DNA of 32,517 nucleotides from a virus. The notes beneath the pieces are model-generated. The model ran no database searches and was not told where the DNA came from. It saw only the letters and a program-made list of their open reading frames with translations. The stretch spans positions 1 through 32,517 of the IMG/VR virus record IMGVR_UViG_3300009285_002433. One strand, 5' to 3'. Every line of letters starts with the position of its first letter. The first letter of the stretch is position 1. Positions 1,085-32,517 of this stretch are shown piece after piece. A program made the translations under genes and the position numbers.

Positions 1085-1399
1085 CTAGCCGCGACGCTGA
1101 ACGTGGACCGTGACCTCGACGGAGCCGGCGCGCTTGGCCGCGATGTAGCCTCCGTCGGGGAGCCAGAAGTACTCGCCTTCGCCGTCGGCGGCCCACGTCA
1201 CCACGTCGCCCTCGTCCGTGCCGATGGCCGCGATCACGGCGGGGTCGGCCTTGAGCCACGTCGCATCGCCGCGGACCTTGCATTGCCACCAGCCCTTCGC
1301 CAGGGCCGGCGTGCAGTGAACCGAGGCATCGTCCAGCGTGAGGGTGCGATGGGTGCTACAGGACCCGGCGAGCCAGGTCCGAGGGCGCTCGTTGCTCAT
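1085..1399 (-). CDS. Small protein of unknown function in the tail-fibre region
   Basis: This 104-residue protein starts at an ATG at 1399. It has several Trp/Tyr residues (WWQCKV, YFWLPDGGYIAAK), two Cys near the N-terminus and one in the middle, and no signal peptide or membrane segment. It does not resemble a family I can name. It lies between two fibre-like genes, so it may be a small virion or fibre-assembly protein, but that is inference from position. Its leader is unusual: a 5-bp hairpin touches the start codon and a 20-base element shared with the tail-chaperone gene lies just upstream. There is no obvious ribosome site of the strong kind used by its neighbours. Confidence 0.7.
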   Translation of the reverse strand: MSNERPRTWLAGSCSTHRTLTLDDASVHCTPALAKGWWQCKVRGDATWLKADPAVIAAIGTDEGDVVTWAADGEGEYFWLPDGGYIAAKRAGSVEVTVHVQRRG

Positions 1400-1438
1400 G
1401 ACCCGTATCGTGGGTCCGAGGCTCAGACAGGGACAAGA
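1400..1438 (-). promoter_or_regulatory. Leader element A: 20-base repeat plus start-codon hairpin
   Basis: On the minus strand, TCTTGTCCCTGTCTGAGCCT (1438-1419) is followed by 19 bases and then the ATG at 1399. The same 20 bases occur at 11869-11850, also 19 bases before an ATG. Within the 19-base spacer GACCC (1416-1412) and GGGTC (1404-1400) form a 5-bp stem with a 7-base loop whose base touches the start codon. A role in translation control or transcription is inference. I see no convincing -35/-10 pair. Confidence 0.55.
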
Positions 1439-6126: not shown

Positions 6127-6926
6127 GCGGCGACCTCGGCCGAGTCGGCCGGCATGCCGAGCGACCACAGGGTGCGGAAATAGGCCGCGTCACGCGCCAC
6201 GTCGCACACCCGGAAGTCCTCGACGAGGCCGACGAACGGCTCGTTCGTGCTGGCGCTGCCCCATCCTCCGACGGCCCACGGCCCGGCAGGCGCGTCGTGC
6301 TCAAAAGCCAGCGTCTCGGAGGCGATCAGCGCACCGTCGAGGTAGGCGCAGACCTCCAGCGTGGACTCGACGTATGTCAGCGCGCCGTGATGCCAGCATC
6401 CTGGGCCGATGAACCCGAGATTGCCCCAGCCGCCGAGCATCGAGACGGCGGTGGCCGTCTTGCGAATGAAACCACCGTCGAGCTTGCAGTCAGATGTGAT
6501 CGCAAGCTTGGGAGCGCCGTAGGGTGACCCGACGCCTCCCACCGCCGACCAGTTCTTCTGGAAGAGCTGCATCCAGCCGCCGGTCGTGTAGCACTCGAGC
6601 TTGAACCAGATGTGCGCCGAGAAGTCCCCTGTCGGCAGCGCGACCGCGGGCGTGAGCGTCGACGAGAACCGCTGGTAGCTGCGGCAGAGCCGCGCGCAGT
6701 AGCCGAAGCGACCCGGCACCTGGCGGATCGGAAGATCGGCGCCCGACCCGCTATCGCACGGGATCCCGTCACACGCCGCCCCGCTGCCGACGTTGGGCTC
6801 GTTGCCGGACGCCTGGTCGAACCGCCACACGAGGATGTCGTGGGCATCCTGCGCGACGCGAGTCGGGCGCGGCGACTCCCCCGGCGTTGCCGTCGCGATC
6901 GGTCCAGGCTGGATCACGAGTCCCAT
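6123..6926 (-). CDS. LamG/concanavalin-A-like lectin domain protein at the baseplate
   Basis: This 267-residue protein starts at an ATG at 6926 with GAGG five bases upstream. Most of the chain looks like a LamG-type jelly roll: 'GDFSAHIWFKLE', 'WHHGALTYV...LEVCAYLDGALIASE' and 'FVGLVEDFRVCDVARDAAYFRTLW', which closely follow the beta-strand pattern of Laminin_G_3 domains. Such domains bind carbohydrates or act as structural decoration. Several Cys pairs are visible in the first half (CDGIPCDSG, CARLCRS). The gene sits between the central spike and the gp25-like wedge, so it is probably a virion component that contacts the host surface; that role is inference. Confidence 0.75.
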   Translation of the reverse strand: MGLVIQPGPIATATPGESPRPTRVAQDAHDILVWRFDQASGNEPNVGSGAACDGIPCDSGSGADLPIRQVPGRFGYCARLCRSYQRFSSTLTPAVALPTGDFSAHIWFKLECYTTGGWMQLFQKNWSAVGGVGSPYGAPKLAITSDCKLDGGFIRKTATAVSMLGGWGNLGFIGPGCWHHGALTYVESTLEVCAYLDGALIASETLAFEHDAPAGPWAVGGWGSASTNEPFVGLVEDFRVCDVARDAAYFRTLWSLGMPADSAEVAA

Positions 6927-11157: not shown

Positions 11158-11830
11158 TACTTAGCGCCCCTTCCGGCGGGCCTGTGCTTCTCGTCCCACC
11201 GCCGTTGTGCCGCATCCGCCCGCTCCTGGAAGTCGAGCACGAGATGGGCCTCCACAAGCTCCAGGAGCGACCATGCTTTGACCTCGCGCAAGGACCCCAT
11301 CCCGGCCTGTACGGGCCGCCAGAACCACGACTGAGCGTCTACGTGCCTGCCACACTCGTCCCCGAGGAGCCCGGCAGCCGAGAGATCGGGGCCAGGCGCG
11401 CGCTCGCGCTTCGCCGCGCTGCGCCGATCCAGGAGGAAAAAGGGAGCTTGAGGTTGCTCTCGAGGACGAACGCCGCGACCTCGAGCATCGTGTCGAGCTC
11501 GCCGGCGAAGACCTCGTCGAAGTTGGCGGGCGTCACGAGGATGCTGTCGCAGTGGACGCTGCCCTCGGAACCGTCCACCTTGCGGGCGATCATGCGCTTG
11601 ATGGTCGTGCGCAGCTCAGGGTCCGAGATGGAGCGGCCGAGGCTCGAGATCGCGTGGCCCAGCGCGGGCATCACATCGGTGTCGAGGTTCGTGAGCGCCC
11701 CGATGCCCTCGCCGAGCGCCGGGAGTGAGACCCTGCCGACGATGCCGGCGATCTCCATGGCGGCAGTGGCGGGCAGGAGCGTGGCGGTCCAGACCTTGCC
11801 GCCGATGGACTTCTCGTGGACGGAGGGCAT
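11157..11830 (-). CDS. Tail assembly chaperone, -1 frameshifted long form (G-T type)
   Basis: The ATG-initiated frame from 11830 is read to the TTT codon at 11440-11438. A -1 slip on C-CCT-TTT then enters a frame that is open for 93 codons to a TAA at 11159-11157. The product would be 131 + 93 = 224 residues. The extension contains 'QSWFWRPVQAGMGSLREVKAWSLLELVEAHLVLDFQERADAAQRRWDEK', an amphipathic helical segment of the kind found in the T part of tail assembly chaperones. The TAA touches the tape measure ATG. Without the slip, 181 bases before the tape measure would hold no gene. Slippage frequency cannot be read from sequence. Confidence 0.8.
11339..11830 (-). CDS. Tail assembly chaperone, unshifted short form
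   Basis: This is the 163-residue zero-frame product from the ATG at 11830 to TAG at 11339. It sits between the tube and tape measure genes, the conserved place of tail assembly chaperones that coat the tape measure during tube polymerisation. The middle is helical (FDEVFAGELDTMLEVAAFVLESNLKLPFSSW), as in these chaperones. The last ~30 residues after the slip site are low-complexity (Ala/Ser/Arg/Gly). Its leader carries the 20-base element and a perfect 7-bp hairpin directly against the ATG. Confidence 0.8.
   Translation of the reverse strand: MPSVHEKSIGGKVWTATLLPATAAMEIAGIVGRVSLPALGEGIGALTNLDTDVMPALGHAISSLGRSISDPELRTTIKRMIARKVDGSEGSVHCDSILVTPANFDEVFAGELDTMLEVAAFVLESNLKLPFSSWIGAARRSASARLAPISRLPGSSGTSVAGT
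11438..11444 (-). other. Programmed -1 ribosomal frameshift slippery heptamer
   Basis: The minus strand reads C CCT TTT in the zero frame (CTC CCT TTT TCC), an exact X-XXY-YYZ heptamer of the CCCTTTT kind. A simultaneous -1 slip re-pairs as CCC TTT. A very GC-rich stretch with GCGC/GCGC self-complementarity begins about 15 bases downstream and could stimulate slipping, but the fold is not calculated. The genetic context (chaperone before tape measure) is the classical place for such a site. Confidence 0.82.
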
Positions 11831-11869
11831 AGCCTGGATGATGGGGCCCAGGCTCAGACAGGGACAAGA
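11831..11869 (-). promoter_or_regulatory. Leader element B: 20-base repeat plus start-codon hairpin
   Basis: The 20 bases at 11869-11850 are identical to those at 1438-1419 and also end 19 bases before an ATG. Here AGCCTGG (11854-11848) and CCAGGCT (11837-11831) form a perfect 7-bp stem with a 10-base loop, and the stem ends right at the ATG (11830). The stem sequence differs from the one at element A, yet the position is the same. Regulation of translation or a transcription start nearby is inference. Confidence 0.6.
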
Positions 11870-17430: not shown

Positions 17431-18396
17431 CTACTGCGCCGCCTGGTAGTCGCGGTGGAGGGCGCGGCCCTCCGGGGTGTCGAGGAAGCGCCCGATGGCC
17501 TGCGCCTTCGTGAGCTTCTCGCCGCTCTTCGCCACCATGGCGAGCGCGCCTGCCTCGATCTTGTCCCAGGCATCCCCGCCGGCCTCGCCGTGGGTGCCGA
17601 TCTCCTTGAGCGCGAGGCCCTGCTGGGCGAGCGCGTCGGCCTGCTTGAGGACCGCCTCGAGCTTCTCGACGTACTCCTTTCCCATCGACTCGGCCTTGAC
17701 GATCAGGAAGGCGACGTCCGCCGCCTTCATCGTCGGGAACTCGCCCGCGGCCTTGGCGACGGCGTCGCGGGTCTTGCGCTCGGCGACCTCGGCCGCCAGC
17801 TTGGCGACCGCCTCCTCGTGGGCCTTGACCAGGTCGGCGTGCGCCTTCTGGATCTCGGCCAGCGCCGACTTGGCCTCGCCGGCCTCCTTGGCGAGCGTCG
17901 CGAGCTCGGCCTTGTCGGCCGGCTCGACCGACGCCACCTTTAGGGCCTTGCCGCAGGCCTTGCAGGTTCCCTTCTCGGCCTCGCCCTCGCCAAGCGTGGC
18001 CCCGCAGTTCGGGCACTTGTCCATGTCGTCTCCTTGGCCCGGCGCGTCGGCCGCGGCCTTCTCGAGGTTGTCGATCGCCTTCGCCACGAGGGCGTCCACG
18101 TCGTCCTTGATGATCGCGAGCGGATCGCCGCCGGCGGCCTTCACTGCCGCCAACGCCCGCCGCGCGATGCGCGCCGCGCCCTGCGATTCCTTCGCGAGCC
18201 CGGCCACCGCAGCGTCCTCGCCGTCCGCGGCCACCGCCGCCGACTGGAACGCCGACACCATGTCCTCGGGCACCGTGATCGTCGGGTTGGCGGCCATCTC
18301 GTCGGCGCTCCTGAGCAGAAGCAACGGCCGCTTGTTGGCCGGTCGGTCCACTAACGAGACCTCCACGACCTTCAGCTCTTTGAGGCGCGTTGCCAT
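17431..18396 (-). CDS. Scaffold-like capsid assembly protein with zinc ribbon
   Basis: This 321-residue protein starts at an ATG at 18396. The N-terminus 'LKELKVVEVSLVDRPANKRPLLLLRS' is the short motif seen next to XkdF-type or prohead protease domains. The rest is Ala/Lys/Glu-rich and mostly helical, with a coiled-coil stretch at ~158-215, as expected for an internal scaffold. A zinc ribbon, C-x2-C (128/131) and C-x2-C (145/148), sits in the middle. The gene lies just before the decoration and capsid genes, the standard scaffold place. The matching protease domain is encoded separately at 24972-25388, on the other side of the accessory block. Confidence 0.72.
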   Translation of the reverse strand: MATRLKELKVVEVSLVDRPANKRPLLLLRSADEMAANPTITVPEDMVSAFQSAAVAADGEDAAVAGLAKESQGAARIARRALAAVKAAGGDPLAIIKDDVDALVAKAIDNLEKAAADAPGQGDDMDKCPNCGATLGEGEAEKGTCKACGKALKVASVEPADKAELATLAKEAGEAKSALAEIQKAHADLVKAHEEAVAKLAAEVAERKTRDAVAKAAGEFPTMKAADVAFLIVKAESMGKEYVEKLEAVLKQADALAQQGLALKEIGTHGEAGGDAWDKIEAGALAMVAKSGEKLTKAQAIGRFLDTPEGRALHRDYQAAQ

Positions 18397-18432
18397 GTAG
18401 GCCTAAGGAAAGCCCACCTGGCAGACACGGGT

Positions 18433-18972
18433 CTACTTGCTACGACGGGTAGCAGGAGCGACGGTCGAGACCGTCTCCGCGATGACCTGATCTCGCCAGA
18501 TGCAGACGGGTCGCCAGCGCCTGCCGACAGATCCCTCGGTGATCGCGTCCATGGGCAGGTGGTTCTGCCACCCGTTCGCAAGGCGCGCCGGCATCGAGGA
18601 CACGATCTCGATCGGCGCGTAGGAGAACAGCACGCGATCCGCGACCTCGCAGGCCCAGCGCAGCACGGGCTGCGGTCTCTCGAGATGCTCGAGCAGGCCG
18701 GCGATCACTGCGACGTCGAACGCCCACACGATCGGCGGCACGAACGGATCCGCGTCCAGGTCGGCGAGGATGGTCCTTCGCGCGTCGCTCGGCTCGACGC
18801 AGTCGATCGCCAGGTAGGTGCAGCCCGACGGCAAGAGGAATCGCAACTCCTGGCTGCCGGCGCCGATGTCTAGGACGGACTCGCCGGGCCTGATGCACCT
18901 CGCCATGATCTGAAGGCGCTCGAGCCACGGCGTCGTCTCGTTGACCTCGCGAGCCCGGCGGACGACGTCCAT
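18433..18972 (-). CDS. Class I SAM-dependent methyltransferase (small)
   Basis: This 179-residue protein has its ATG at 18972 overlapping the GT4 stop by one base (TGATG). Residues ~33-45 (SVLDIGAGSQELR) form the glycine-rich SAM-binding motif I. Residues ~85-97 (FDVAVIAGLLEHLERP) form the post-motif of Methyltransf_11-like enzymes. The sequence lacks any DNA- or protein-methylase specificity motif, so the acceptor is unknown. The sugar-modifying neighbours suggest a carbohydrate or lipid-linked acceptor (inference). It is the last gene of the cassette, followed by a 36-base gap before the scaffold gene. Confidence 0.77.
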   Translation of the reverse strand: MDVVRRAREVNETTPWLERLQIMARCIRPGESVLDIGAGSQELRFLLPSGCTYLAIDCVEPSDARRTILADLDADPFVPPIVWAFDVAVIAGLLEHLERPQPVLRWACEVADRVLFSYAPIEIVSSMPARLANGWQNHLPMDAITEGSVGRRWRPVCIWRDQVIAETVSTVAPATRRSK

Positions 18973-19877
18973 CACGCCACCTCCAGTAGCTCCGTCATCC
19001 GGCGCTCGAACGCGTCCGTCTCGGTCACGAAGTAGTCGCGCGCAGCCCTCTGGTAGTGGCCGATCGCCGCGTTGTCCAGCGCCATGCACTTCGCCACCGC
19101 GTCCTTGACAGAGTCGGCAGGCACGCGGCACGTGTCGCTCATGCGGAAGCGGGCGCCACGCACCGACTCACAGCGCAGCGCAGCCGGGCACCCGTCCCAC
19201 TCGCTCATCGGCGGGCGATCGGGCACGGAGACGAGCGCGCCGCACGAGAGAGCCTCCCAGATCGCATGGCCGAAACCTTCCGTCCACGACGGTTGCAGCG
19301 CGAACAGGCAGCGATTCTGCTCGTGCCTCAGAAGCTCGTCGGAGACGTGCCCGAGGAAGCGCACGCCATCGACGGGGGCGTGGTCCTTGAAGAGATCGCC
19401 GATCATCGTGAGCGGCGGCGGGTCGTGCATCTGCGTCCATGCCTCGATCGCTCGGTCGCCGCCCTTGGCGATCGACGGGCCGACGACGCAGAGGAACGCG
19501 CGCTCCTGCGGCACCCACGGCTCCCGCCGGTCGCGCGACCGAAAGCCCACGAACTCGGCGCGGCCTCCGATGCGCGCGAAGATCGCCTGCGCGTGGTGAG
19601 TCTTGCAGAGGACGCGATCGAAGACCCGCAGGTGCTTGACGTCCTGCGGCGCCAGCCACTCGGGGTTGGGGATCAGCCAGTTGCGCGGCGCCAGCCCGAA
19701 TGCCCACTCGGGCACGACCTCCAGGAAGATGGACAGGTCGGCGCGTCCTCCGGTCGCCGGCCGGTCTCGATGCACGCGCCTCGACTCGTGGCCGGCCCCG
19801 GCGATCAACGCCTCGACGATCTCGGCATCGCGCTCCAGGCCGCGGCCGTTAAAGTGCGTCACGACGTTGACGATCAT
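18972..19877 (-). CDS. Glycosyltransferase, GT4-like (GT-B fold)
   Basis: This 301-residue protein has its ATG at 19877 overlapping the pyruvyl transferase stop (ATGA). The C-terminal domain has the GT4 signature 'LQPSWTEGFGHAIWEALSCGALVSVPD' (Glu200 and Glu208, the E-x7-E of the donor site), preceded by 'FLCVVGPSIAKGGDRAIEAW' and 'GVRFLGHVSDELL'. These retaining enzymes move a nucleotide-activated sugar to a glycan or other acceptor. The N-terminal Rossmann half is shorter than in many relatives (usual length 350-400 residues). Donor and acceptor cannot be read from the sequence. Confidence 0.85.
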   Translation of the reverse strand: MIVNVVTHFNGRGLERDAEIVEALIAGAGHESRRVHRDRPATGGRADLSIFLEVVPEWAFGLAPRNWLIPNPEWLAPQDVKHLRVFDRVLCKTHHAQAIFARIGGRAEFVGFRSRDRREPWVPQERAFLCVVGPSIAKGGDRAIEAWTQMHDPPPLTMIGDLFKDHAPVDGVRFLGHVSDELLRHEQNRCLFALQPSWTEGFGHAIWEALSCGALVSVPDRPPMSEWDGCPAALRCESVRGARFRMSDTCRVPADSVKDAVAKCMALDNAAIGHYQRAARDYFVTETDAFERRMTELLEVA

Positions 19878-20671
19878 CTCGCATCCCCCTCTCCCATGCC
19901 CTCGAGCGCAACCACGAGCCGCACCTTCATGCCCGCCAGCATCGGCCGCTTGTACTCCCACGCCCGCGCCGCGATGTCGGACGGCCGAGCGCCGCGGTGG
20001 AAGCTGACCGCCATCGGATCGCGGATGCCGTGCGCCGAGTAGTAGTCGCGGAACTTGAAGCCGGCGCCCTGCACGCGGTCCGAGAGGACGACCCATGCGT
20101 TCGGGATGCCGAGCGAGTCGGCGAAGACGAGCCCGTGCAGCGAGGACGAGATGATGAAAGCGCAGCGCGACATCTGCTCGAGGACGTCGCGCGGTCGCCC
20201 GCAGATGTCGATCGTCGTGGCGTCGTCGGGGAAGGCGCGCGCCCAGAGCGCGACCTCCTCGAGGTCGGCGTCGGCGTAGTGCGGGATCAGCCCGACGGCG
20301 TAGCGCGGCTCCGTCCTGGCGACCCCGTAGACGTCGGCGGCAAGGATGCCCGGATCGCCGAATGCGACCTTGCCCAGGCCCTCCCAGCGCCTCGCGGTGA
20401 GCTGCCCGCGCACGGCTAGCACGCGGGCGCCGGGGGCGTAGACGCGGGCGTGCTCGAACATGAGCCCGGTGCCCCACACCGCGCCGGAGTAGGACGCCGG
20501 CAGGTTCTGGGCGATCGACCCCGCCGCCACCAGTGTCGGCGAGTCTCTGGCGTCGCAGACGGTGACCACCCGCTGCGTGTAGTGGCGCACGATGTCGCGC
20601 GCGCACTCGTCCCCGGCGTTCCCGCAGCGCCATCCGCACCGAGCGTGGTAGAGGCGGATCGGCTCGCTCAT
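19874..20671 (-). CDS. Polysaccharide pyruvyl transferase family protein
   Basis: This 265-residue protein has its ATG at 20671 overlapping the stop of the exostosin fusion (ATGA). Family marks are the N-terminal 'GNAGDECARDIVRHY' (17-31), 'GTGLM' near 67, 'GDPGILA' (105-111), 'GLIPHYAD' (127-134) and the C-terminal 'FIISSSLHGLVFADSLGIP' (172-190), the conserved 'SxHG' segment. The family adds pyruvate ketals from phosphoenolpyruvate to sugars in surface polysaccharides. The protein is a little shorter than usual (about 300-400 residues). It is uncommon in phages as far as I know. Confidence 0.85.
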   Translation of the reverse strand: MSEPIRLYHARCGWRCGNAGDECARDIVRHYTQRVVTVCDARDSPTLVAAGSIAQNLPASYSGAVWGTGLMFEHARVYAPGARVLAVRGQLTARRWEGLGKVAFGDPGILAADVYGVARTEPRYAVGLIPHYADADLEEVALWARAFPDDATTIDICGRPRDVLEQMSRCAFIISSSLHGLVFADSLGIPNAWVVLSDRVQGAGFKFRDYYSAHGIRDPMAVSFHRGARPSDIAARAWEYKRPMLAGMKVRLVVALEGMGEGDAR

Positions 20672-22446
20672 CGTCCGCTCCCCGGAAGCGGTGCGCCGCT
20701 GGGTCGCGCTCCGTCGTAGGCGAAGACCATCGGCAGCTTGGGCTCGTACTCCCTGGCGTTCGTGTGGATCGAGCGCAGCATCCCCTGCGGCCCGTCGTCA
20801 CATCGAGGCAGGTTGGGCGCGTAGACCCACACGCCCCACGTCTCGATCGTCGCCTCGCCGCTGGCGATCTGCACGGCCATGACCTGGTAGAGCACGTCCT
20901 CGATCATCGTCTTGGCGTCACGACCGAAGATCGCGTTGACGATGTGCGTGTACCACCGCGTCCTCGCCAGGTGCGGGCGATGCCACCAGGCCGATGTCCG
21001 CATCACCGGGACGCCGTCGATCTCCTGGACGGGGCCGAACAGGTGCGCATGGCACGGGAGCACCGACTCGTGGCCGTGGAGGCGGATCGCGTTGAAGCCG
21101 GGCTGGCCGAGCAGTCGGATCATGCCGGCCCAGTCGATGACCCCCGCCGGGTGGATGTCGTGCTCGCAGTACATCACGAGAGGCGTGCGCACGAGGTCGA
21201 GCGCCGCGCGCGCCATGTTGGCCTGGTGGGTGTGCTCCTCGAAGACGAGCGGCAGGCACCCCCTGAACTCGGGGTCCCATGCGCACAGGTCGATCACCCG
21301 TCGCTTGTACTCCTCGTAGGCGGCGCGTCGGTCGGCGTGGACGTCGGGCAGGCCGTCGATCTGGATGATGAGCTCAGCGTCCCGCAACTCGGCGTAGGAG
21401 CGGATGCGGCGGATCGTGTTCTCGAGGTAGGCGGTGCTCGGGTTACTGATCACGCTCGACGTGGGCACGAGCACGGTGACCGGCGGGATCGACGACGCCT
21501 GACCCGTGAGCGCGGCCAGGTCCTGCTCGAGCGCGACGGCGACCGAACGCTTGTAGCCAATCCACCACGCCCCACACCGGCTGGCGAGACGCTGGAGCTC
21601 CACAGGGTCGGCGAGCAGGCGGTCGATCGTCTCGCCCAGATTCGTCCAGTCGTCGAGCACCGGGAAGGGCGGCTGGCACCCGAGGACATGCTGCCAGTAG
21701 TCGCCGCGGTCGCCGGCAGGCCAGAGAGGCGCGTCCCGGCTACAGATCGGCACGCAGCCGGCCTCGAGCGCCTCGTAGAGCCTGAACGTCTCGGGCGTCA
21801 TCCACCCGCCCGGGCATGGAGCGATGGCGCACGACGCCATGTCCCGCAGGAACGTCGGCCGATGGCCCTGGGTGAAGCCGCCGGTGGGCTGGAGGAGCCC
21901 ATCCTTGCGCTTCTCGAGGGCGGCCACGGTGTCGAGGCGCGCCTTGTGGTTGACCTGGCCCGAGAAGAACCAGCGATGCCGGCGCTCGGCCAGCGGCAGG
22001 CGCGGCAGGTCGGCGAGGATCTCCCGCGTTCCAGGAGGCCACCCGAGCAGGACACGCCGATCGGCGGGGCGCCCGGGTCTCGATGACATCAGCCAGTGGC
22101 GCAGTCGCGCGCGCTGGGTCGGCGGCGGGAGCGCCACCTGCTCGTCCGACGTCTGCACGAACAGGCACCACGGCAGGGCGTCGGTCGCCGCCTTGATCTC
22201 GGCGCAGTAGCCCTTCGTGTGCGCCTTGTCGAGGCGCTCTCTCTCCACGAAGCCGCCCCATGCGCCGATCAGCACGGCTCCGTTCTGCGCGTCGGGAGCG
22301 CACCGCGTCGGGTCGGCGTGGACGATGTCCACGCACGGGCGCACCACGCCGGGCCACAGGCTCCCATCGAGCGCCGACTCCATGAGCGCGTGGTCCCACA
22401 GCCCGCGCAGCCCGTAGGCCCAGATCACATCACACGAAGTCGGCAT
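20668..22446 (-). CDS. Two-domain glycosyltransferase: exostosin-like N-half, GT2-like C-half
   Basis: This is a 592-residue protein. I use the ATG at 22446, because AAGGAG lies seven bases upstream; an ATG four bases earlier is out of frame. The N-half (to ~320) has exostosin/GT47-like elements: 'RWFFSGQVNHKAR' (158-170), 'ASCAIAPCPGGWMTPETFRLYEALEAGCVPIC' (204-235) and a C-terminal 'DW..L.....RLL'. The C-half (322-592) begins 'PVTVLVPTSSVISNPSTAYLENTIRRIRSY...LIIQIDGL' and has 'TPLVMYCEHDIHP' (421-433), with a possible metal-binding E-H-D in place of DxD. Two transferases in one chain suggest two successive sugar additions, which is inference. Confidence 0.82.
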   Translation of the reverse strand: MPTSCDVIWAYGLRGLWDHALMESALDGSLWPGVVRPCVDIVHADPTRCAPDAQNGAVLIGAWGGFVERERLDKAHTKGYCAEIKAATDALPWCLFVQTSDEQVALPPPTQRARLRHWLMSSRPGRPADRRVLLGWPPGTREILADLPRLPLAERRHRWFFSGQVNHKARLDTVAALEKRKDGLLQPTGGFTQGHRPTFLRDMASCAIAPCPGGWMTPETFRLYEALEAGCVPICSRDAPLWPAGDRGDYWQHVLGCQPPFPVLDDWTNLGETIDRLLADPVELQRLASRCGAWWIGYKRSVAVALEQDLAALTGQASSIPPVTVLVPTSSVISNPSTAYLENTIRRIRSYAELRDAELIIQIDGLPDVHADRRAAYEEYKRRVIDLCAWDPEFRGCLPLVFEEHTHQANMARAALDLVRTPLVMYCEHDIHPAGVIDWAGMIRLLGQPGFNAIRLHGHESVLPCHAHLFGPVQEIDGVPVMRTSAWWHRPHLARTRWYTHIVNAIFGRDAKTMIEDVLYQVMAVQIASGEATIETWGVWVYAPNLPRCDDGPQGMLRSIHTNAREYEPKLPMVFAYDGARPSGAPLPGSGR

Positions 22447-22488
22447 GCATCGGCTCCTTGTCGGCAAGGACGACCATCACCCAGTCCA

Positions 22489-23217
22489 TCACGGCGCGAA
22501 CCTCCAGTGCGCCTCATGGTCGGCGCCGAGGAATCGGCCGCGGTAGCCGATCTCGTCGAAGAACCGGAACAGGTGCTCCTGGTGACATCCGTAGCGGTCG
22601 GAGTAGTAGAGCCACGGGTGGATCGACAGGAAGACCACCGGGCGGTGGGTGAGGATCGTCTCGCGCGCGCCCGTGACCACCAGGCCCTCGGCACCCTCGG
22701 TGTCCACCAGGATCACGGTCGGCTTCGCGCCCGTCCTCGCGCAGTAGCCGTCGATCATGATCGCGGGGACGTGCTTGTGCTCGAGGTAGGCCCCGAAGTG
22801 CTGATCGATCAGGATGTCGCCATCGGCCGCGTCCGGCCACGTGTTGCCCGGCCTCGGGAAACCCTGGCTGTCGTCGCGGGCGATGTCTCGCACGGCGTCG
22901 GCCACGAAGCCCTGCCAGCATCCGGCCGGTGGGCCGTCGAGGTTGGCCTGCCACGTCGCCCGCATCCCGGGCCAGTTCTTCCAGACCGGCTCGAGCAGAT
23001 GCACCTGCGCGCCGCCGAGCGCCGCCAGGACGGAGAACTCGCCGATCTCGGCGCCCACATCGAGCAAGACCGAGCCCGGCCCGCACTCACGCTTGAGCGC
23101 CGGAAGCATGCACGCCTCCCACCTCTCGAATCCGTGCGCCGCCTGGCGGTGTGGCAGGACCTTCACCACGTCCCCGGTCGGGAACGTGACCGGCACCATC
23201 TCGATCACAGGCCCCAT
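22489..23217 (-). CDS. FkbM-family methyltransferase
   Basis: This 242-residue protein starts at an ATG at 23217, overlapping the previous gene by 13 bases; an internal ATG at 23199 is an alternative. SAM motif I is 'SVLLDVGAEIGEFSVLAALGG' (49-69), followed by an acidic residue after 'VHLLEP'. The FkbM mark 'VILVDTEGAEGLVVTGARETI' (168-188, usually '..iDvEG.E..vl.G....l') is present, and 'VFLSIHPW' closes the core. FkbM enzymes methylate hydroxyl groups in small molecules and sugars, so the cassette context suggests O-methylation of a glycan. Confidence 0.85.
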   Translation of the reverse strand: MGPVIEMVPVTFPTGDVVKVLPHRQAAHGFERWEACMLPALKRECGPGSVLLDVGAEIGEFSVLAALGGAQVHLLEPVWKNWPGMRATWQANLDGPPAGCWQGFVADAVRDIARDDSQGFPRPGNTWPDAADGDILIDQHFGAYLEHKHVPAIMIDGYCARTGAKPTVILVDTEGAEGLVVTGARETILTHRPVVFLSIHPWLYYSDRYGCHQEHLFRFFDEIGYRGRFLGADHEAHWRFAP

Positions 23218-23684
23218 GTCCTCGCGTCCTCTCCGGGCTTGAGCGCCCGCATCCACGCCTTGACGTTCTTGCCCACCGGCTCCTTGCGCTCGATCGTCCA
23301 GCGCCGTGGCGTGTAAAGCCTGCCGTTCTCGCGGCCGAGGTGGGTCGCGTCGTCGAAGAAGTCGAACGAGTCCATCGAGAAGCCACGGACGTGGGTCGGG
23401 TCGGTCACGTGGTTGTAGGTGCCATGCAGCGGCACCTGGATCACCGCCAGCCCGCCTGGCACGAGGACGCGGTGGATCTCGTTCATCGCGCCCACGAAGT
23501 CCTGGAGATGCTCGAGCACATCGATCGCGATCACCTCGTCGACGACGCAGGACGGCAGCGGGATCCCGTGCGCCAGGTCGACAAGGATCTCGACGTGCGG
23601 ACCCTCGACGCGGTCGAGGTGGACGACGCGCGCGCCCTCGCGCACGGTCGGGCACCAGCCGCTGCCCAACTCGAGGACGGTCAC
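23205..23684 (-). CDS. Class I SAM-dependent methyltransferase (Methyltransf_11-like)
   Basis: This 159-residue protein starts at a GTG (23684) that overlaps the stop of the glycosyltransferase gene (GTGA), with AAGGGG seven bases before it. Motifs are 'LELGSGWCPT' (motif I, 4-13), 'VVHLDRV' (acidic residue of motif II), 'DEVIAIDVLEHLQDFVGAMNEIHRVLVPGGLAVIQVPLHG' (49-88), which is the Methyltransf_11 core, and the end 'RWTIERK'. It is shorter than most relatives because the N-terminal cap is missing. The acceptor is unknown; the cassette suggests a sugar or lipid-linked intermediate. Confidence 0.82.
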   Translation of the reverse strand: MTVLELGSGWCPTVREGARVVHLDRVEGPHVEILVDLAHGIPLPSCVVDEVIAIDVLEHLQDFVGAMNEIHRVLVPGGLAVIQVPLHGTYNHVTDPTHVRGFSMDSFDFFDDATHLGRENGRLYTPRRWTIERKEPVGKNVKAWMRALKPGEDARTWGL

Positions 23685-24625
23685 TTGATCACCCCTTCCG
23701 CGATGAGCGCGTTGAGCATCTGCCTCATGCGCTGGTGGTAGGTGTGGTGCGTCTTCGTGTGCTCGTGGCCCTCGAGGCGGATGCGCTCCCGCTCCTCGTC
23801 GTGCTCCAGGTAGTAGTCGATCGTGCGCTTGAGGCAGTCGAAGTCGCCGAACGGGAACGTCACCAGGTGCCGGCCCGGCTCGTAGTGCTCGGCGAGGCCG
23901 TCGATGTGCGGGTGGACGAGGAATCCGCCGCGTCCGAGGGTCTCGGGGATGCGGTCGCTCCAGTAGCGCGGGTGCTTGTACCCGAGGCACAGCGAGTCGC
24001 CCACCACGACCTTCGTGCTGGCGTACAGGACGTTGAGCGGAGCCTCGCGGATGCACTCGACCTCGGCTCCTCGGCCGAATCGGGTGAAGCGCGCGGCGTA
24101 GGTCTTGGCGAGCCACTCCACGAGCTCGCCGCGCCAGGGCCACTCGTCGTGGTAGCCCGGCCCGGACCCCACGAAGATCACGTCGTACCGGCGATCGCCG
24201 GGCTCGGCGAGGTAGCAGCCTGCACGGAAGACGCCCGGCGGCATCCAGTGATGCTTGATCCCGTGCTCGAGCCAGAAGGCCTCGCTCCCGCCGTCGGCCG
24301 AGAAGACGTGATCACATCTCCACCACGGGTGCTCGTCGATGTCGCGCGAGCGCTTCAGGCCAGCGTACAGGTCGAGGTGGTAGGCGACCGTCGGGCACGG
24401 GATCTTGCGGAGCATCTCGGCTGTGTCACCGCGCAGCCAGCCCATGGTGCGCTGCCAGATGAAGAGCTGCGCGCCCACCGCGCGCACCCGGTCGGGCACC
24501 TCCGCAGCCGTGATGCGATTCTCCTGGAGGCGCACGACGACCTCGCCCATGTCCTCCAGGGTGTTCGCCAGGTGCGACTCGGTACACCACGACAGGCCGA
24601 AGTTGCCCAGGTACGCGATGATCAT
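23681..24625 (-). CDS. Glycosyltransferase, CgeB-like (GT-B fold)
   Basis: This 314-residue protein has its ATG at 24625 overlapping the stop of the HTH gene (ATGA). The first half holds 'WWRCDHVFSADGGSEAFWLEHGIKHHWMPPGVF', the D-x-x-F-x-x-D pattern of CgeB-type proteins, and 'YDVIFVGSGPGYHDEWPWRGELVEWL'. The second half (195-314) has 'PLNVLYASTKVVVGDSL...YWSDRIPETLGRGGFLVHPHIDGLAEHYEPGRHLVTF', the Glyco_trans_1_2 donor-site pattern. It probably transfers an activated sugar, with donor and acceptor unknown. It is the first enzyme of the cassette. Confidence 0.85.
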   Translation of the reverse strand: MIIAYLGNFGLSWCTESHLANTLEDMGEVVVRLQENRITAAEVPDRVRAVGAQLFIWQRTMGWLRGDTAEMLRKIPCPTVAYHLDLYAGLKRSRDIDEHPWWRCDHVFSADGGSEAFWLEHGIKHHWMPPGVFRAGCYLAEPGDRRYDVIFVGSGPGYHDEWPWRGELVEWLAKTYAARFTRFGRGAEVECIREAPLNVLYASTKVVVGDSLCLGYKHPRYWSDRIPETLGRGGFLVHPHIDGLAEHYEPGRHLVTFPFGDFDCLKRTIDYYLEHDEERERIRLEGHEHTKTHHTYHQRMRQMLNALIAEGVIK

Positions 24626-24975
24626 CCGACCTCCAGGACCGCGAACGAGCGCCCGAGGGCGCGCCTGATCTGGGCGACGGTCGTCCCCGGATTGATGGCC
24701 TGGATCTGCCCGCCGTCGCCGCCGATCGCCACAAGCCCGCCCTCCAGCATGGCGAGGCGGATGACCGGGACCGGCTGCTTGCCGATGCACGCCAGCGCGC
24801 GGCGCATCGCGATCATGGACGAGATCAGCCGCACGTCGTCCTCGCTCCACTGCGCCGGCGAGCCCTGCTTGCGCGAGGGTCGCACGCTCGGCACCGCCAG
24901 CCCATCGCGGACGAGTCGGCTCAGGTAGGCGACGGAGACGCCGGTGCGGTCGGCTAGCTCGCGCGACGAGATCAC
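24622..24975 (-). CDS. MerR-like helix-turn-helix DNA-binding protein
   Basis: This 117-residue protein starts at a GTG (24975) overlapping the protease stop (GTGA), with GAGG seven bases upstream; an upstream GTG at 24999 is possible but less likely. Residues 1-55 (ISSRELADRTGVSVAYLSRLVRDGLAVPSVRPSRKQGSPAQWSEDDVRLISSMIAMRRAL) form a winged-HTH of the MerR/excisionase type. The C-terminal half has no Cys/metal-binding or coiled-coil effector domain, so it is not a typical full MerR. It opens the accessory block and could regulate it, or it could be an unrelated morphogenesis-region gene; I cannot tell which. Confidence 0.7.
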   Translation of the reverse strand: MISSRELADRTGVSVAYLSRLVRDGLAVPSVRPSRKQGSPAQWSEDDVRLISSMIAMRRALACIGKQPVPVIRLAMLEGGLVAIGGDGGQIQAINPGTTVAQIRRALGRSFAVLEVG

Positions 24976-25388
24976 TCCTGGGCCTCGCGCACAGCCCACC
25001 CGCCGATGCTAACGCCTTGGAAGTCGCCCGCCTTGACGCGCGTCCAGAGGGCGTCGTCCTCGATGCGGAGCACCACGATCCACGAGCCCTCCTTGACGCC
25101 CTGGCCGCCGATCGTCAGGTCACGCTGGGCGATGTACGACTCGACGATCTTGGCGGGCGCTTCCTCGCGATGCTGGACGCCGACCATCCGTGAGTCCATG
25201 AACCCGTGCGCGGCGGTCTCGATGTCCTCGCGCGTCGTGAACTCGCCGTGCGTGTCCACCTCGTCGGGCTCCATCGCCAGTCCGTAGACGAGGCGCTTCT
25301 CGTCGTCGGCGCAGATGATGGGGGCCACGATCTCGGCGTGGCGACGCGTCTTGTCCTCGGTGATGAACTCGATCGTGATGTCGCTCAT
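24972..25388 (-). CDS. XkdF-type putative capsid maturation serine protease
   Basis: This 138-residue protein starts at an ATG at 25388 overlapping the head protein stop (ATGA). It has the XkdF (Peptidase U35_2) pattern: 'RLVYGLAMEPDEVDTHGEFTTREDIETAAHGFMDSRMVGVQHREEAPAKIVESYIAQRD..' and 'GSWIVVLRIEDDALWTRVKAGDFQGVSIGGWA'. His73 and Ser127 sit where the catalytic residues of this protease family lie. It would trim scaffold or capsid during prohead maturation. The short N-terminal motif seen near such domains is instead on the scaffold-like protein 6.6 kb downstream. Confidence 0.82.
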   Translation of the reverse strand: MSDITIEFITEDKTRRHAEIVAPIICADDEKRLVYGLAMEPDEVDTHGEFTTREDIETAAHGFMDSRMVGVQHREEAPAKIVESYIAQRDLTIGGQGVKEGSWIVVLRIEDDALWTRVKAGDFQGVSIGGWAVREAQE

Positions 25389-26293
25389 AGGTCCACCGTG
25401 ATCAGCAGGGCGCACCGGCAGTTCGGGTGCGCGTCGGGCGGGACTCCGTAGCCGCCGGGGAACTCACCATCGAGCCCCGTCGTGGTTCCGTCGAGCCCCT
25501 CGCAGATTTCACAGAGGCGCTCGTCGCGCGCGCTCTGCCACTCCTTGACGACCTTCGAGCCCGGCACCGCGCCCTCGCTCGCCATCTCTCGCCAGAGATC
25601 CACGCGCCCCTCGTTGAGCGCCTTGAACGACTCCGTGCGGGCGATGGTCTCGGCGCGCTGCTTGGCCAGCGAGAGCGCGTAGCGGCCGACGGCCTTCTCG
25701 GCCCGGGCGTCATCCATGCCATCGGCGAACAGTCGGTTGCGGTAGTTCACCACCGCGGCCGCTCGCCGCTCGTCCAGGGGCACGATGTCGCGCAGCAGCT
25801 TCGCTGTGCCATCGACATGGAGCCCGGAGCGGATGCTCCTGGCGATGGCGTTCCGCATCGCCTCGCGCGCACCGTTGCTCACGCCCACCACGAGGTCGGC
25901 CGATCGCTTCTCGGCCCAGCGCGCGGCCCGCTCGGTCACGTCGAGTCGCGCCCCAATCGCCCCTGCGGGCTGCGACAGCCGAGGGGGCACCTGTCCGGCG
26001 GCGACCTTCCTTCCGGCCCGCAGGGAGCCCAGGATCGCCCAGGACGACGCCCTGCCGACCGTGCGCTCTGCCTCCTCTTCGAGGCTGGGCGCCTTGCCTG
26101 CCTTCTCGACGCGCGCGCCCACGCCCGACTGCCTGGCGTAGCGGGCCAGATCCTCGAGCGAGACGGACGCTTGGAGGTCGCGGAGGGCGGCGATCAGCAC
26201 GGGCGCCACGACGCGGGCGCGGTCGCGCACGAGCGCCTCGATCTCGTGGCGCACGGTGATCGCGCTCGCCTCGCGCAGGGGAAGCGCCCGCAC
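25385..26293 (-). CDS. Minor head protein, SPP1 gp7 / Mu F-like
   Basis: This 302-residue protein starts at a GTG at 26293, one base after the portal stop codon, with GAGGAG seven bases upstream. The C-terminal 100 residues carry the family hallmark: 'AKQRAETIARTESFKALNEGRVDLWREM' followed by 'KEWQSARDERLCEICEGLDG...EFPGGYGVPPDAHPNCRCALLI' (Cys-x2-Cys ... HPNCRC). The N-terminal half is helical. These proteins bind the portal inside the head and are injected with or act on the DNA. The order portal - F-like - protease is conserved. Confidence 0.9.
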   Translation of the reverse strand: MRALPLREASAITVRHEIEALVRDRARVVAPVLIAALRDLQASVSLEDLARYARQSGVGARVEKAGKAPSLEEEAERTVGRASSWAILGSLRAGRKVAAGQVPPRLSQPAGAIGARLDVTERAARWAEKRSADLVVGVSNGAREAMRNAIARSIRSGLHVDGTAKLLRDIVPLDERRAAAVVNYRNRLFADGMDDARAEKAVGRYALSLAKQRAETIARTESFKALNEGRVDLWREMASEGAVPGSKVVKEWQSARDERLCEICEGLDGTTTGLDGEFPGGYGVPPDAHPNCRCALLITVDL

Positions 26294-26294
26294 G

Positions 26295-27584
26295 CTAGCG
26301 CTCCTCGTTGTCGTCCGTGGGCAACCCGGCGATACGCTTCAGGTGCGCGTCCATCTCGGGCCCGATGAGCGGCACTCCAGCGCCGGCCAGCGAGGACACG
26401 TAGGCGCCCAGCTCGGCGAGGTCCGGCTTCTCGACATCGCCGTGGACGAACGTCGGCAGGGCCTGCACGCGGAACTCGGGGTTGAGCGCGAAGAGGCGCG
26501 GGACTGCCTGGCGGTTGAGCGCCTCCTGGATCGAGTCGAGCCACGCGCCGATGGCAAGCGCGAAGGCCGCGGTCTTCGAGTCGGCGAGCGCGAAACTACC
26601 GGTCTTCTCGTGGCCGATCAGGATGAAGTCGGCGAGCACCGTCATGGCGATGCGCTGGTCGTACCGCTGGATGATCGCGTTGGTGTCGAACATCCTGCGC
26701 GAGGACGACGAGAGCAGGCCGATCTCGAAAATCTTGTTGCCGCGGTCGTCGTACTCGAGCGGATAGACGAGGCCGGCCTGCTCGTTGTTGCGGATCTGCG
26801 TCACCAGCTTCTTGAAGGTGGCATAGACCGCCTTGTCGGTCGCGCTGGCATTGGACTGCATCATGTGGGCGGGGATGCCGGCCGTCGGGATGCCGGCCAG
26901 GTCACGCTCGATACCGATGCCCTCGAAGTTCTCGACGCGCTTCTTGAAGTACCAGGGACGGTAGGCCGTGCGCAGGATGGATCGACCTTCCGGATTCCCC
27001 TTGTGCGAGTAGGGCCGCAGCAGGAGCAGGCGCTCCGCCGGGATGAACACGCGGCGCCACGAGGGCGCGGCCTGCTGCCACAGGCCGGTGATGTCTCGGC
27101 CGTCGGGGTCGTGCTGCCACTCGGCGATCGTCGCCTGGACACGCACCGGCAGTCGCTTCCATCCGATGCGCCCATCGGCGAAGCGCGAGGGCGACTCGCC
27201 CACCGGTCCGTTGCGGCGCTTGTAGACGAGCTCATGGGCCGAGAAGCCCTGCTCGAGCATCGACAGCGCCTCGTCGATGAACTCGGCCCACGAGTGCGTC
27301 ATGTCCTGTTGGCACTGGCGCAGGAACTCGGCGGCCTGCTCGTCCTCGGGCGCGCTCGAGGCGGGGCGGATCGACCAGTCCGCCTGCCGAATGAGCATCC
27401 GGATCGCGAAGAGCATGGCGCCGATGAGCGGATCATTGAGGGCCATCTCGCGGTAGGTGCGGATCGCCTTGCCGCCCGACAGCTCGGCGAGCGGCTCCTC
27501 ATGGACGTACCCGCCGTAGATTTCGAGGCCGGGATAGCCGATCTCACCGTCGCCCGCGCCCGCCGTCACGTCGTCTTGTGCCAT
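26295..27584 (-). CDS. Phage portal protein, Mu gp29-like (DUF935)
   Basis: This is a 429-residue protein. I choose the ATG at 27584; the frame opens upstream at a TTG (27623) that has no ribosome site. Motifs include 'YREMALNDPLIGAMLFAIRMLIRQADWSIRPA', 'MLEQGFSAHELVYKRRNG', 'PAERLLLLRPYSHKGNPEGRSILRTAYRPWYFKKRVENF' and 'ALADSKTAAFALAIGAWLDSIQEALNRQAVPRLFALN', which follow the DUF935/portal family throughout. The protein forms the dodecameric DNA gate at one capsid vertex. A Lys/Arg-rich segment in the centre fits the wing region. Confidence 0.9.
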   Translation of the reverse strand: MAQDDVTAGAGDGEIGYPGLEIYGGYVHEEPLAELSGGKAIRTYREMALNDPLIGAMLFAIRMLIRQADWSIRPASSAPEDEQAAEFLRQCQQDMTHSWAEFIDEALSMLEQGFSAHELVYKRRNGPVGESPSRFADGRIGWKRLPVRVQATIAEWQHDPDGRDITGLWQQAAPSWRRVFIPAERLLLLRPYSHKGNPEGRSILRTAYRPWYFKKRVENFEGIGIERDLAGIPTAGIPAHMMQSNASATDKAVYATFKKLVTQIRNNEQAGLVYPLEYDDRGNKIFEIGLLSSSSRRMFDTNAIIQRYDQRIAMTVLADFILIGHEKTGSFALADSKTAAFALAIGAWLDSIQEALNRQAVPRLFALNPEFRVQALPTFVHGDVEKPDLAELGAYVSSLAGAGVPLIGPEMDAHLKRIAGLPTDDNEER

Positions 27585-27616
27585 GGTTGCTACACCGTGG
27601 CGCAAGTCGTCAGACA

Positions 27617-27638
27617 GCGGCAAGAGCGCGGCAAGAGC
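27617..27638 (-). repeat. Tandem 11-base repeat between terminase and portal genes
   Basis: GCTCTTGCCGC on the minus strand occurs twice head to tail in the gap before the portal gene, 33 bases upstream of the start I chose. A longer upstream extension of the portal frame (TTG start) would make part of this coding. It may be a slippage product or a protein-binding site; nothing else supports either. Confidence 0.5.
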
Positions 27639-27646
27639 GCGCGCTG

Positions 27647-27671
27647 CCAGGTCCAGGCTACCAGGTCCAGG
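27647..27671 (-). repeat. 11-base direct repeat flanking the terminase stop codon
   Basis: CCTGGACCTGG occurs on both sides of the large terminase TAG (27660-27658). The first copy encodes the last residues and the second lies in the gap. The sequence looks like a local duplication that has no effect on the coding region. No function is evident. Confidence 0.5.
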
Positions 27672-31653: not shown

Positions 31654-31935
31654 TCACAGTCCCCGGATCTTCAGCAGCGCCATGATCTCGATCTGCCTGA
31701 CCCATTCCTTCGTGATCTCCAGCATCGGCGCCACCTCGTCGAGCGTGTGCTCCCCGTCGTCGGCGACGTCGAGGGAGCACGTTTCCCCCATCTCCCAGAC
31801 CTCGACGCCGCGGTGGTTCTGCACCACGCGCTGCCCGACTACCTCTAGCGCCAGGTGGTGCCGACAGCCCACCCACGGGCACGGGCGCGGGCTGTCGATG
31901 CACTCGGCGCGCGTCCTCGGGCGCCTGACCTTCAT
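31654..31935 (-). CDS. Sigma-70 region 4-like DNA-binding protein
   Basis: This 93-residue protein has its ATG at 31935 overlapping the stop of the upstream gene (ATGA). The last 35 residues ('GEHTLDEVAPMLEITKEWVRQIEIMALLKIRG') match the region-4 helix-turn-helix of sigma-70 factors ('LTLEEVGe.lgvTrErVRQIE.kAL.kLR'). The N-terminus has 'PRPCPWVGCRHHLALEV', a short Cys/His motif. There is no region 2, so it cannot be a complete sigma factor. It could direct or modulate late transcription with the host polymerase (inference). Similar small proteins occur in other phages. Confidence 0.85.
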   Translation of the reverse strand: MKVRRPRTRAECIDSPRPCPWVGCRHHLALEVVGQRVVQNHRGVEVWEMGETCSLDVADDGEHTLDEVAPMLEITKEWVRQIEIMALLKIRGL

Positions 31936-32264
31936 CTGAACTTGCGCCCCCTGACGGCCTTGTAGAGCCTGCGGATCTGATGCTGGCAGCACGCGATCCC
32001 GTGCACGTCGTACTGGTGCGCGTAGAGTCTCGCCGCCCGCACGAGCCGCCCGCACGCGAGGCACCTCCAGCGCCCGTGCGTTGACCAGAGCAGTCCGCGT
32101 CGGTTGCAGATCCGCGCGTGCCCCCCGATCGCCCCGCCGAGCGATCGCCCGCCGTGCCCTTCGCATCGCCGGACCACGTACCCGCAGCCGTTCGCGCATC
32201 TGCACTCCCTCACCTCGCCAGTGCAGGTCTCGTCGTGCAGATCGCAGACGCCGGGGGCGCTCAT
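31932..32264 (-). CDS. Small zinc-binding protein of unknown function
   Basis: This 110-residue protein starts at an ATG at 32264 (ATGA with the upstream stop) and its own stop overlaps the next start in the same way. It is unusually rich in Cys and His: 'CDLHDETC', 'CRCANGCGYVVRRCEGH' in the first 40 residues, and 'RWRCLACGRLVRAARLYAHQYDVHGIACC' near the C-terminus. This suggests two or three zinc sites, the last resembling a C-x2-C...H-x4-H finger. The end is basic, so DNA or RNA binding is possible. I do not recognise the family. Confidence 0.7.
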   Translation of the reverse strand: MSAPGVCDLHDETCTGEVRECRCANGCGYVVRRCEGHGGRSLGGAIGGHARICNRRGLLWSTHGRWRCLACGRLVRAARLYAHQYDVHGIACCQHQIRRLYKAVRGRKFR

Positions 32265-32517
32265 GCCGTGTCGTCCTCCACGCCGTAGCGGACCGCCTTG
32301 AACGACTCCGCGATCTGCTCATCCGACGGGTCCGCGACCTCATGCCGCACCTCGAGGTGGGTCCACCTGTCCGAGAAGTGCACGAGCGCCCCGCACTCGC
32401 GACACCGGCAGTCGTACCGCGGGGTGTCGGTGTAGCCGCCGGCCGTGCGAGGCCTAGCCAGGCGGACGGCCTCGGGGGCGCGCCGGTCGCGGCGGCCAGA
32501 GCTGTCCTGGTCGCGGC
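32261..32517 (-). CDS. Zinc-finger-like protein, 5' end beyond the window
   Basis: The frame is open from the right window edge to a TGA at 32263-32261, giving 84 visible C-terminal residues. They contain 'YDCRCRECGALVHFSDRWTHLEVRH' split as C-x-C-x2-C followed by H-x4-H, a zinc-finger-like arrangement, and an acidic end (VEDDTA). The N-terminal visible part is Arg-rich. The start codon is not in the window. The stop overlaps the next gene's ATG (ATGA), which supports that the frame is coding. The function is unknown, perhaps nucleic acid binding. Confidence 0.7.
   Translation of the reverse strand, partial: RDQDSSGRRDRRAPEAVRLARPRTAGGYTDTPRYDCRCRECGALVHFSDRWTHLEVRHEVADPSDEQIAESFKAVRYGVEDDTA

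Follow-up and report, generated by a model that had tools for sequence, protein, structure and literature searches.

A short element present in four copies (A–D), each tightly placed ahead of a gene start, was identified in a 32,517-bp viral metagenome sequence (69% GC); the window analyzed here is the entire record. Judged from its sequence features, the TTGTCCCTGTCTG box together with a -10-like hexamer most likely constitutes a lineage-specific promoter, and this is more probable than an RNA hairpin. The sequence of the element was previously unseen; the kind of system is already known.

Every gene that could be named is carried by the minus strand, and the element is therefore to be read on that strand. 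The named genes encode the large terminase, Mu-type portal, head protease, major head protein, tail sheath, tube, chaperone, tape measure and baseplate, by which the phage is classified as contractile-tailed. A cluster of glycosyltransferase and methyltransferase genes (18440-24850, minus strand), located between the head protease gene and the gene at 17431-18396, appears as a large insertion that splits the head genes. A 17-base repeat, CGGAGTCGTTCAAGGCG, is common to two coding regions (25619-25635 and 32294-32310, minus strand). The host was not settled by a methyltransferase scan. The genes referred to below are:

1085-1399, minus strand: gene after copy A, 104 aa, no family match; no Shine-Dalgarno, coding-like GC3 of 0.90
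11339-11830, minus strand: gene after copy B, tail assembly chaperone (phrog_1613, PF21822)
17431-18396, minus strand: gene after copy D, head gene, with a match confined to the N-terminus of phrog_3017
24972-25415, minus strand: head protease, XkdF-type
26295-27584, minus strand: gene after copy C, Mu-type portal protein (PF06074)

The original prediction described an identical 20-mer at two places, in both cases exactly 19 nt before an ATG. This was confirmed for TCTTGTCCCTGTCTGAGCCT on the minus strand (1438-1419 in copy A and 11869-11850 in copy B). With the start-side leader, the element runs 5'->3' from 1438 to 1400 in A and from 11869 to 11831 in B, and the two copies have 34 of 42 nt in common. 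A search of the rest of the genome, which had been proposed at the same time, upheld the two 20-mers and showed that two diverged members had been missed. Copy C, found by a relaxed search with the 39-nt leader, lies before the portal gene and begins TCTTGCCGCTGTCTG, while copy D, found by listing the gaps between genes, precedes the gene at 17431-18396 and begins GTAGACCCGTGTCTG. No further match to the 20-mer with up to 3 mismatches was present in the whole record, and shuffles predict none. The parts of the four copies are:

1419-1438, minus strand: copy A 20-mer, with the proposed -35-like TTGTCC at 1431-1436 and the TGTCTG core at 1424-1429
1407-1412, minus strand: proposed -10-like CACGAT of copy A, 7 nt before the ATG (predicted from sequence)
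1400-1416, minus strand: inverted repeat GACCC/GGGTC of copy A, abutting the ATG; folding no better than shuffles
11850-11869, minus strand: copy B 20-mer, with TTGTCC at 11862-11867 and TGTCTG at 11855-11860
11838-11843, minus strand: proposed -10-like CATCAT of copy B, 7 nt before the ATG
11831-11854, minus strand: inverted repeat AGCCTGGG/TCCAGGCT of copy B, abutting the ATG
18397-18436, minus strand: copy D, diverged, GTAGACCCG-TGTCTG, with the core at 18422-18427
18405-18410, minus strand: proposed -10 TTCCTT of copy D, 8 nt to the ATG
within 18397-18436, minus strand: stem GTGGGCTT/AGGCCTAC of copy D, abutting the ATG
27585-27625, minus strand: copy C, diverged, TCTTGCCGC-TGTCTG, with the core at 27611-27616
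27594-27599, minus strand: proposed -10 CACGGT of copy C, 9 nt to the ATG

Common to all copies is the core TGTCTG, which is found at only these four places when either strand of the 32.5-kb record is considered, compared with 13.6 occurrences expected from dinucleotide shuffles of the record. The core lies 30, 30, 32 and 31 nt from the ATG in A, B, C and D, respectively, and each copy is oriented toward the gene within an intergenic gap of 42-73 nt that holds no other gene. Together the gaps account for 0.35% of the sequence counted over the two strands, so that the probability of all four cores falling in them by chance is ~1e-10. The core is absent from coding DNA on both strands, where about 4.4 occurrences are expected from codon shuffles (p about 0.005), a mild avoidance of the kind expected of a DNA signal. 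The search of the record did not reveal a multitude of copies without a fixed distance to starts, and there is good support for a regulatory element at a fixed position relative to the start codon, as in the original prediction. Short tandem duplications (GAGGCCGG; GCGGCAAGAGC; GCTACCAGGTCCAG) are located directly upstream of copies A and C (1439-1466 and 27617-27671), and in copy C the TCTTGCCG box is itself duplicated.

None of the four starts is preceded by a Shine-Dalgarno sequence, which is present at twelve neighbors; pairing with the anti-Shine-Dalgarno (16S tail) amounts to -2.4 to -3.2 kcal/mol at the former and to -5.8 kcal/mol or stronger at the latter. The starts at 6168, 8206, 25722 and 29157, whose position is uncertain, are likewise weak and lack a Shine-Dalgarno sequence. 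The starts of the chaperone gene and of the gene after D are backed by homology almost to the residue, and that of the portal gene within 13 residues. The 104-aa gene after A has a codon-position GC typical of genes, and a search for its relatives found none. The family matched by the gene after D (phrog_3017) is that of head maturation proteases, to which the protease at 24972-25415 also belongs; the gene product is probably scaffold-like. A small frame (11161-11355, minus strand) overlaps the tail chaperone gene at its end and is possibly the usual programmed frameshift product.

When the copies are aligned on the core, TTGTCC (A and B), TTGCCG (C) and TAGACC (D) are found 5' of TGTCTG, matching TTGACA at four, three and four of six positions, respectively. 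At 11 nt past the core lie the hexamers CACGAT, CATCAT, CACGGT and TTCCTT (A, B, C and D), separated from the -35-like box by 18-19 nt and from the ATG by 7, 7, 9 and 8 nt. The T at 17 nt past the core, i.e., the last place of the hexamer, is invariant in all four copies, and three of them have an A where a -10 hexamer has its second base. With this spacing of 7-9 nt, transcription would start on the ATG or 1-3 nt before it. In our view the element is slightly more likely than not to be a phage-specific promoter with four occurrences in the structural-gene region; transcripts from it would begin on the ATG or 1-3 nt upstream and give leaderless or near-leaderless mRNA.

Such a promoter would consist of (i) a recognition box on the -35 side, composed of TTGTCC, TTGCCG or TAGACC plus TGTCTG and presumably read by a phage factor, (ii) a CANNAT-like -10 hexamer located 18-19 nt beyond the -35-like box, and (iii) a transcript 5' end that, from the -10 spacing, would coincide with the ATG. 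Within a long array of co-directional genes, the four promoters would supply the portal, scaffold-like, tail-chaperone and 104-aa genes with additional transcripts whose timing would be separate. The promoter is favored because it accounts for the constant spacing, the intergenic location, the missing Shine-Dalgarno sequences and the promoter-like sequences seen in relatives. The case is built on four sites, two of them diverged; a strict sigma-70 scan called none of the four, and agreement of the -10 hexamers with TATAAT is poor (2-4 of six positions). Given the poor -10 matches and the failure to find a close relative, our confidence is moderate.

No close relative of the phage was found in the collections searched. 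The exact 20-mer was present in no other contig of IMG/VR. The pattern TTGTCCCTGTCTG-N22-26-ATG occurred there at 58 loci, and at none of them did the element precede a credible gene start. The open frames were almost all very short, many matches lay within long frames and several represented one recurring sequence. Single-protein scans for relatives with the sheath, the chaperone and the 104-aa protein found none, and neither did a capsid search of genome contigs. A capsid scan yielded 52 distant relatives (at most 52% identical), several with the same gene order. A DNA similarity search with the leaders against phages and plasmids gave chance matches only, and a k-mer search of the relatives' gaps revealed no common element.

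Sigma-70-like promoter sequences, picked by eye in about ten loci of these relatives, precede the homologue of gene D in L021 (TTGACA-N17-TACTAT), L025 (TTGACA-N18-CACCGT) and L016 (TTGCAA-N17-CAGAAT), and the portal gene in L022 (TTGACA-N17-CTATGG). The gene D homologue of L022 (8750-8812) is preceded by TTGACA and has a start without a Shine-Dalgarno sequence and a 7-bp hairpin that takes in the ATG. Two of the four element positions (gene D and portal) thus appear promoter-like in distant syntenic relatives. The box of the present phage was not seen at these positions, a scan of L021 for promoter-like sites gave no excess over shuffles, and in other relatives the same genes are tightly packed and have ordinary ribosome-binding sites.

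The original prediction reasoned that a stem which differs in sequence yet remains paired, at a conserved position, suggests selection for an RNA structure at the start codon. In its present form, this explanation holds that the box and a start-codon hairpin bind a phage protein, or themselves set translation, at four genes whose starts have no Shine-Dalgarno sequence. The predicted stem GACCC/GGGTC is indeed present in A, and the different stem of B does abut the ATG. The abutting stems comprise 5 bp in A, 8 bp with one G-U in B, 8 bp with two G-U in D and only 3 bp in C, and such stems have background rates over all window positions of 5.8% (A), <0.75% (B) and 0.75% (D); combining the four ourselves gives ~0.001 without correction for the choice of test. 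However, base -1 has its pairing partner at -17, -24, -21 and -12 in A, B, D and C, respectively, and every one of these registers is complete in its own copy and fails in the others, so that no compensatory change is seen and the argument from a differing but paired stem is not supported. Folding energies compared with shuffles (z of +0.5, -0.85, -1.3 and -3.5 in A, B, C and D) are clear in D only, where the AUG lies within an 18-bp helix; the AUG is unpaired at 0.85 in A and 0.77 in B. Occlusion of the AUG at the four starts overlaps that of control genes and is not greater, and an AUG hidden by a hairpin was rejected as their common property. An Rfam covariance-model search with the element gave no match up to E 1. 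Given the differing registers, the unremarkable folding of A and B and the control-like access to the AUG, selection on a shared stem is not accepted. An RNA element is unlikely, even with the hairpin at the homologous start in L022 in its favor, and the hairpin reading of the element is weak; abutting stems in three of the four copies are mildly unusual and may have an RNA role, and RNA structure may matter in D specifically.

Both signals could also be combined, with a promoter lying inside a hairpin at the start codon, read-through RNA being silent and only promoter-started RNA being translated. The principle is known from T4 genes e, soc, 49 and I-TevI, which have start-codon hairpins with internal late promoters; in gene e the start is hidden in long transcripts and not in late-promoter transcripts (PMC3014915). 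Similarly, a possible hairpin covers the start here, in every copy the predicted transcription start lies downstream of the 5' arm of the stem, and the AUG is buried in D, C and the L022 homologue. The hairpin is, however, convincing in D alone, the AUG is open in A and B, there is no Shine-Dalgarno sequence to hide, and the joint signal is modest once the choice of test is allowed for, which leaves the combination quite unlikely. The stoperators of cluster A mycobacteriophages are asymmetric, share one orientation and are intergenic, and the present site, likewise asymmetric, in one orientation and solely intergenic, could be an operator or stoperator-like site at which a bound protein blocks or ends transcription between genes; the fixed 30-32 nt to the ATG and the missing Shine-Dalgarno sequences are not predicted by such a role, and we regard it as decidedly improbable. 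The extensive identity of A and B and the small tandem duplications adjoining A and C would fit a recent, functionless duplication of a short intergenic segment, but four members, two of them diverged save for core and distance and all at starts without a Shine-Dalgarno sequence, make this extremely unlikely.

The proposed promoter was compared with several known systems. In T4 middle promoters, the MotA box, (a/t)(a/t)(a/t)TGCTTtA, is centred at -30, 12+/-1 bp from an excellent -10 (PMC2988021). The present sites resemble them in having a conserved phage box ~30 bp before the start and, after a short gap (here 11 nt from TGTCTG), a -10-like hexamer, and differ in the box, which is unrelated in sequence, in the poor -10 and in a start that would sit at the ATG. 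Neither MotA nor AsiA was identified in the fragment; the box sequence, the poor -10 and the absence of a MotA homologue among the proteins scanned led us to reject the T4-type middle promoter class. With mycobacterial leaderless starts (PMC4633059) the four starts share the lack of a Shine-Dalgarno sequence before ATG/GTG, and with a -10-like hexamer ~7 nt ahead of the ATG the transcript would begin at the start codon; they differ in that the genes are phage structural genes, in the additional long conserved box upstream, and in that the 5' ends are predicted. In cluster K mycobacteriophages, the SAS (GGGATAGGAGCCC) adjoins the start and is capable of partial pairing with 16S rRNA, and the ESAS adds inverted repeats conserved in sequence (PMC3203893, in which the cluster A stoperators are mentioned). 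These are also short, repeated, asymmetric elements with a fixed place before selected starts, whereas here the box is 30 nt away, there is no Shine-Dalgarno sequence and the stems are not conserved in sequence. An assignment to SAS/ESAS was rejected, as GGGATAGGAGCCC, by comparison with PMC3203893, is not directly before any of the four starts.

For the factor that would read the box, one candidate is encoded by the phage:

31654-31935, minus strand: candidate trans-acting factor, 93 aa, with a C-terminal sigma-70 region 4-like helix-turn-helix; putative role

In sigma factors, region 4 is responsible for recognition of the -35 box. The PF04545 match (E 2.6e-6) was found in a longer frame of 229 aa (31654-32343), whose first ~136 residues resemble an out-of-frame reading, and the true gene is therefore probably 31654-31935. 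Its product, which also has a CPWVGCRHHL motif, is a possible phage late regulator, and that it reads the box is our conjecture. The full combination, in which a private leaderless late promoter class would serve key head and tail genes, hairpins would silence read-through RNA and a miniature protein consisting of sigma region 4 only would act as the reader, is very unlikely.

If the promoter reading is true, the signal for transcription would have been identified in a phage lineage for which metagenomes are the only source, together with four testable leaderless structural genes and a candidate small sigma-like reader. It would also mean that what looks, from the RNA side, like a repeated leader with a hairpin can in fact be a promoter.
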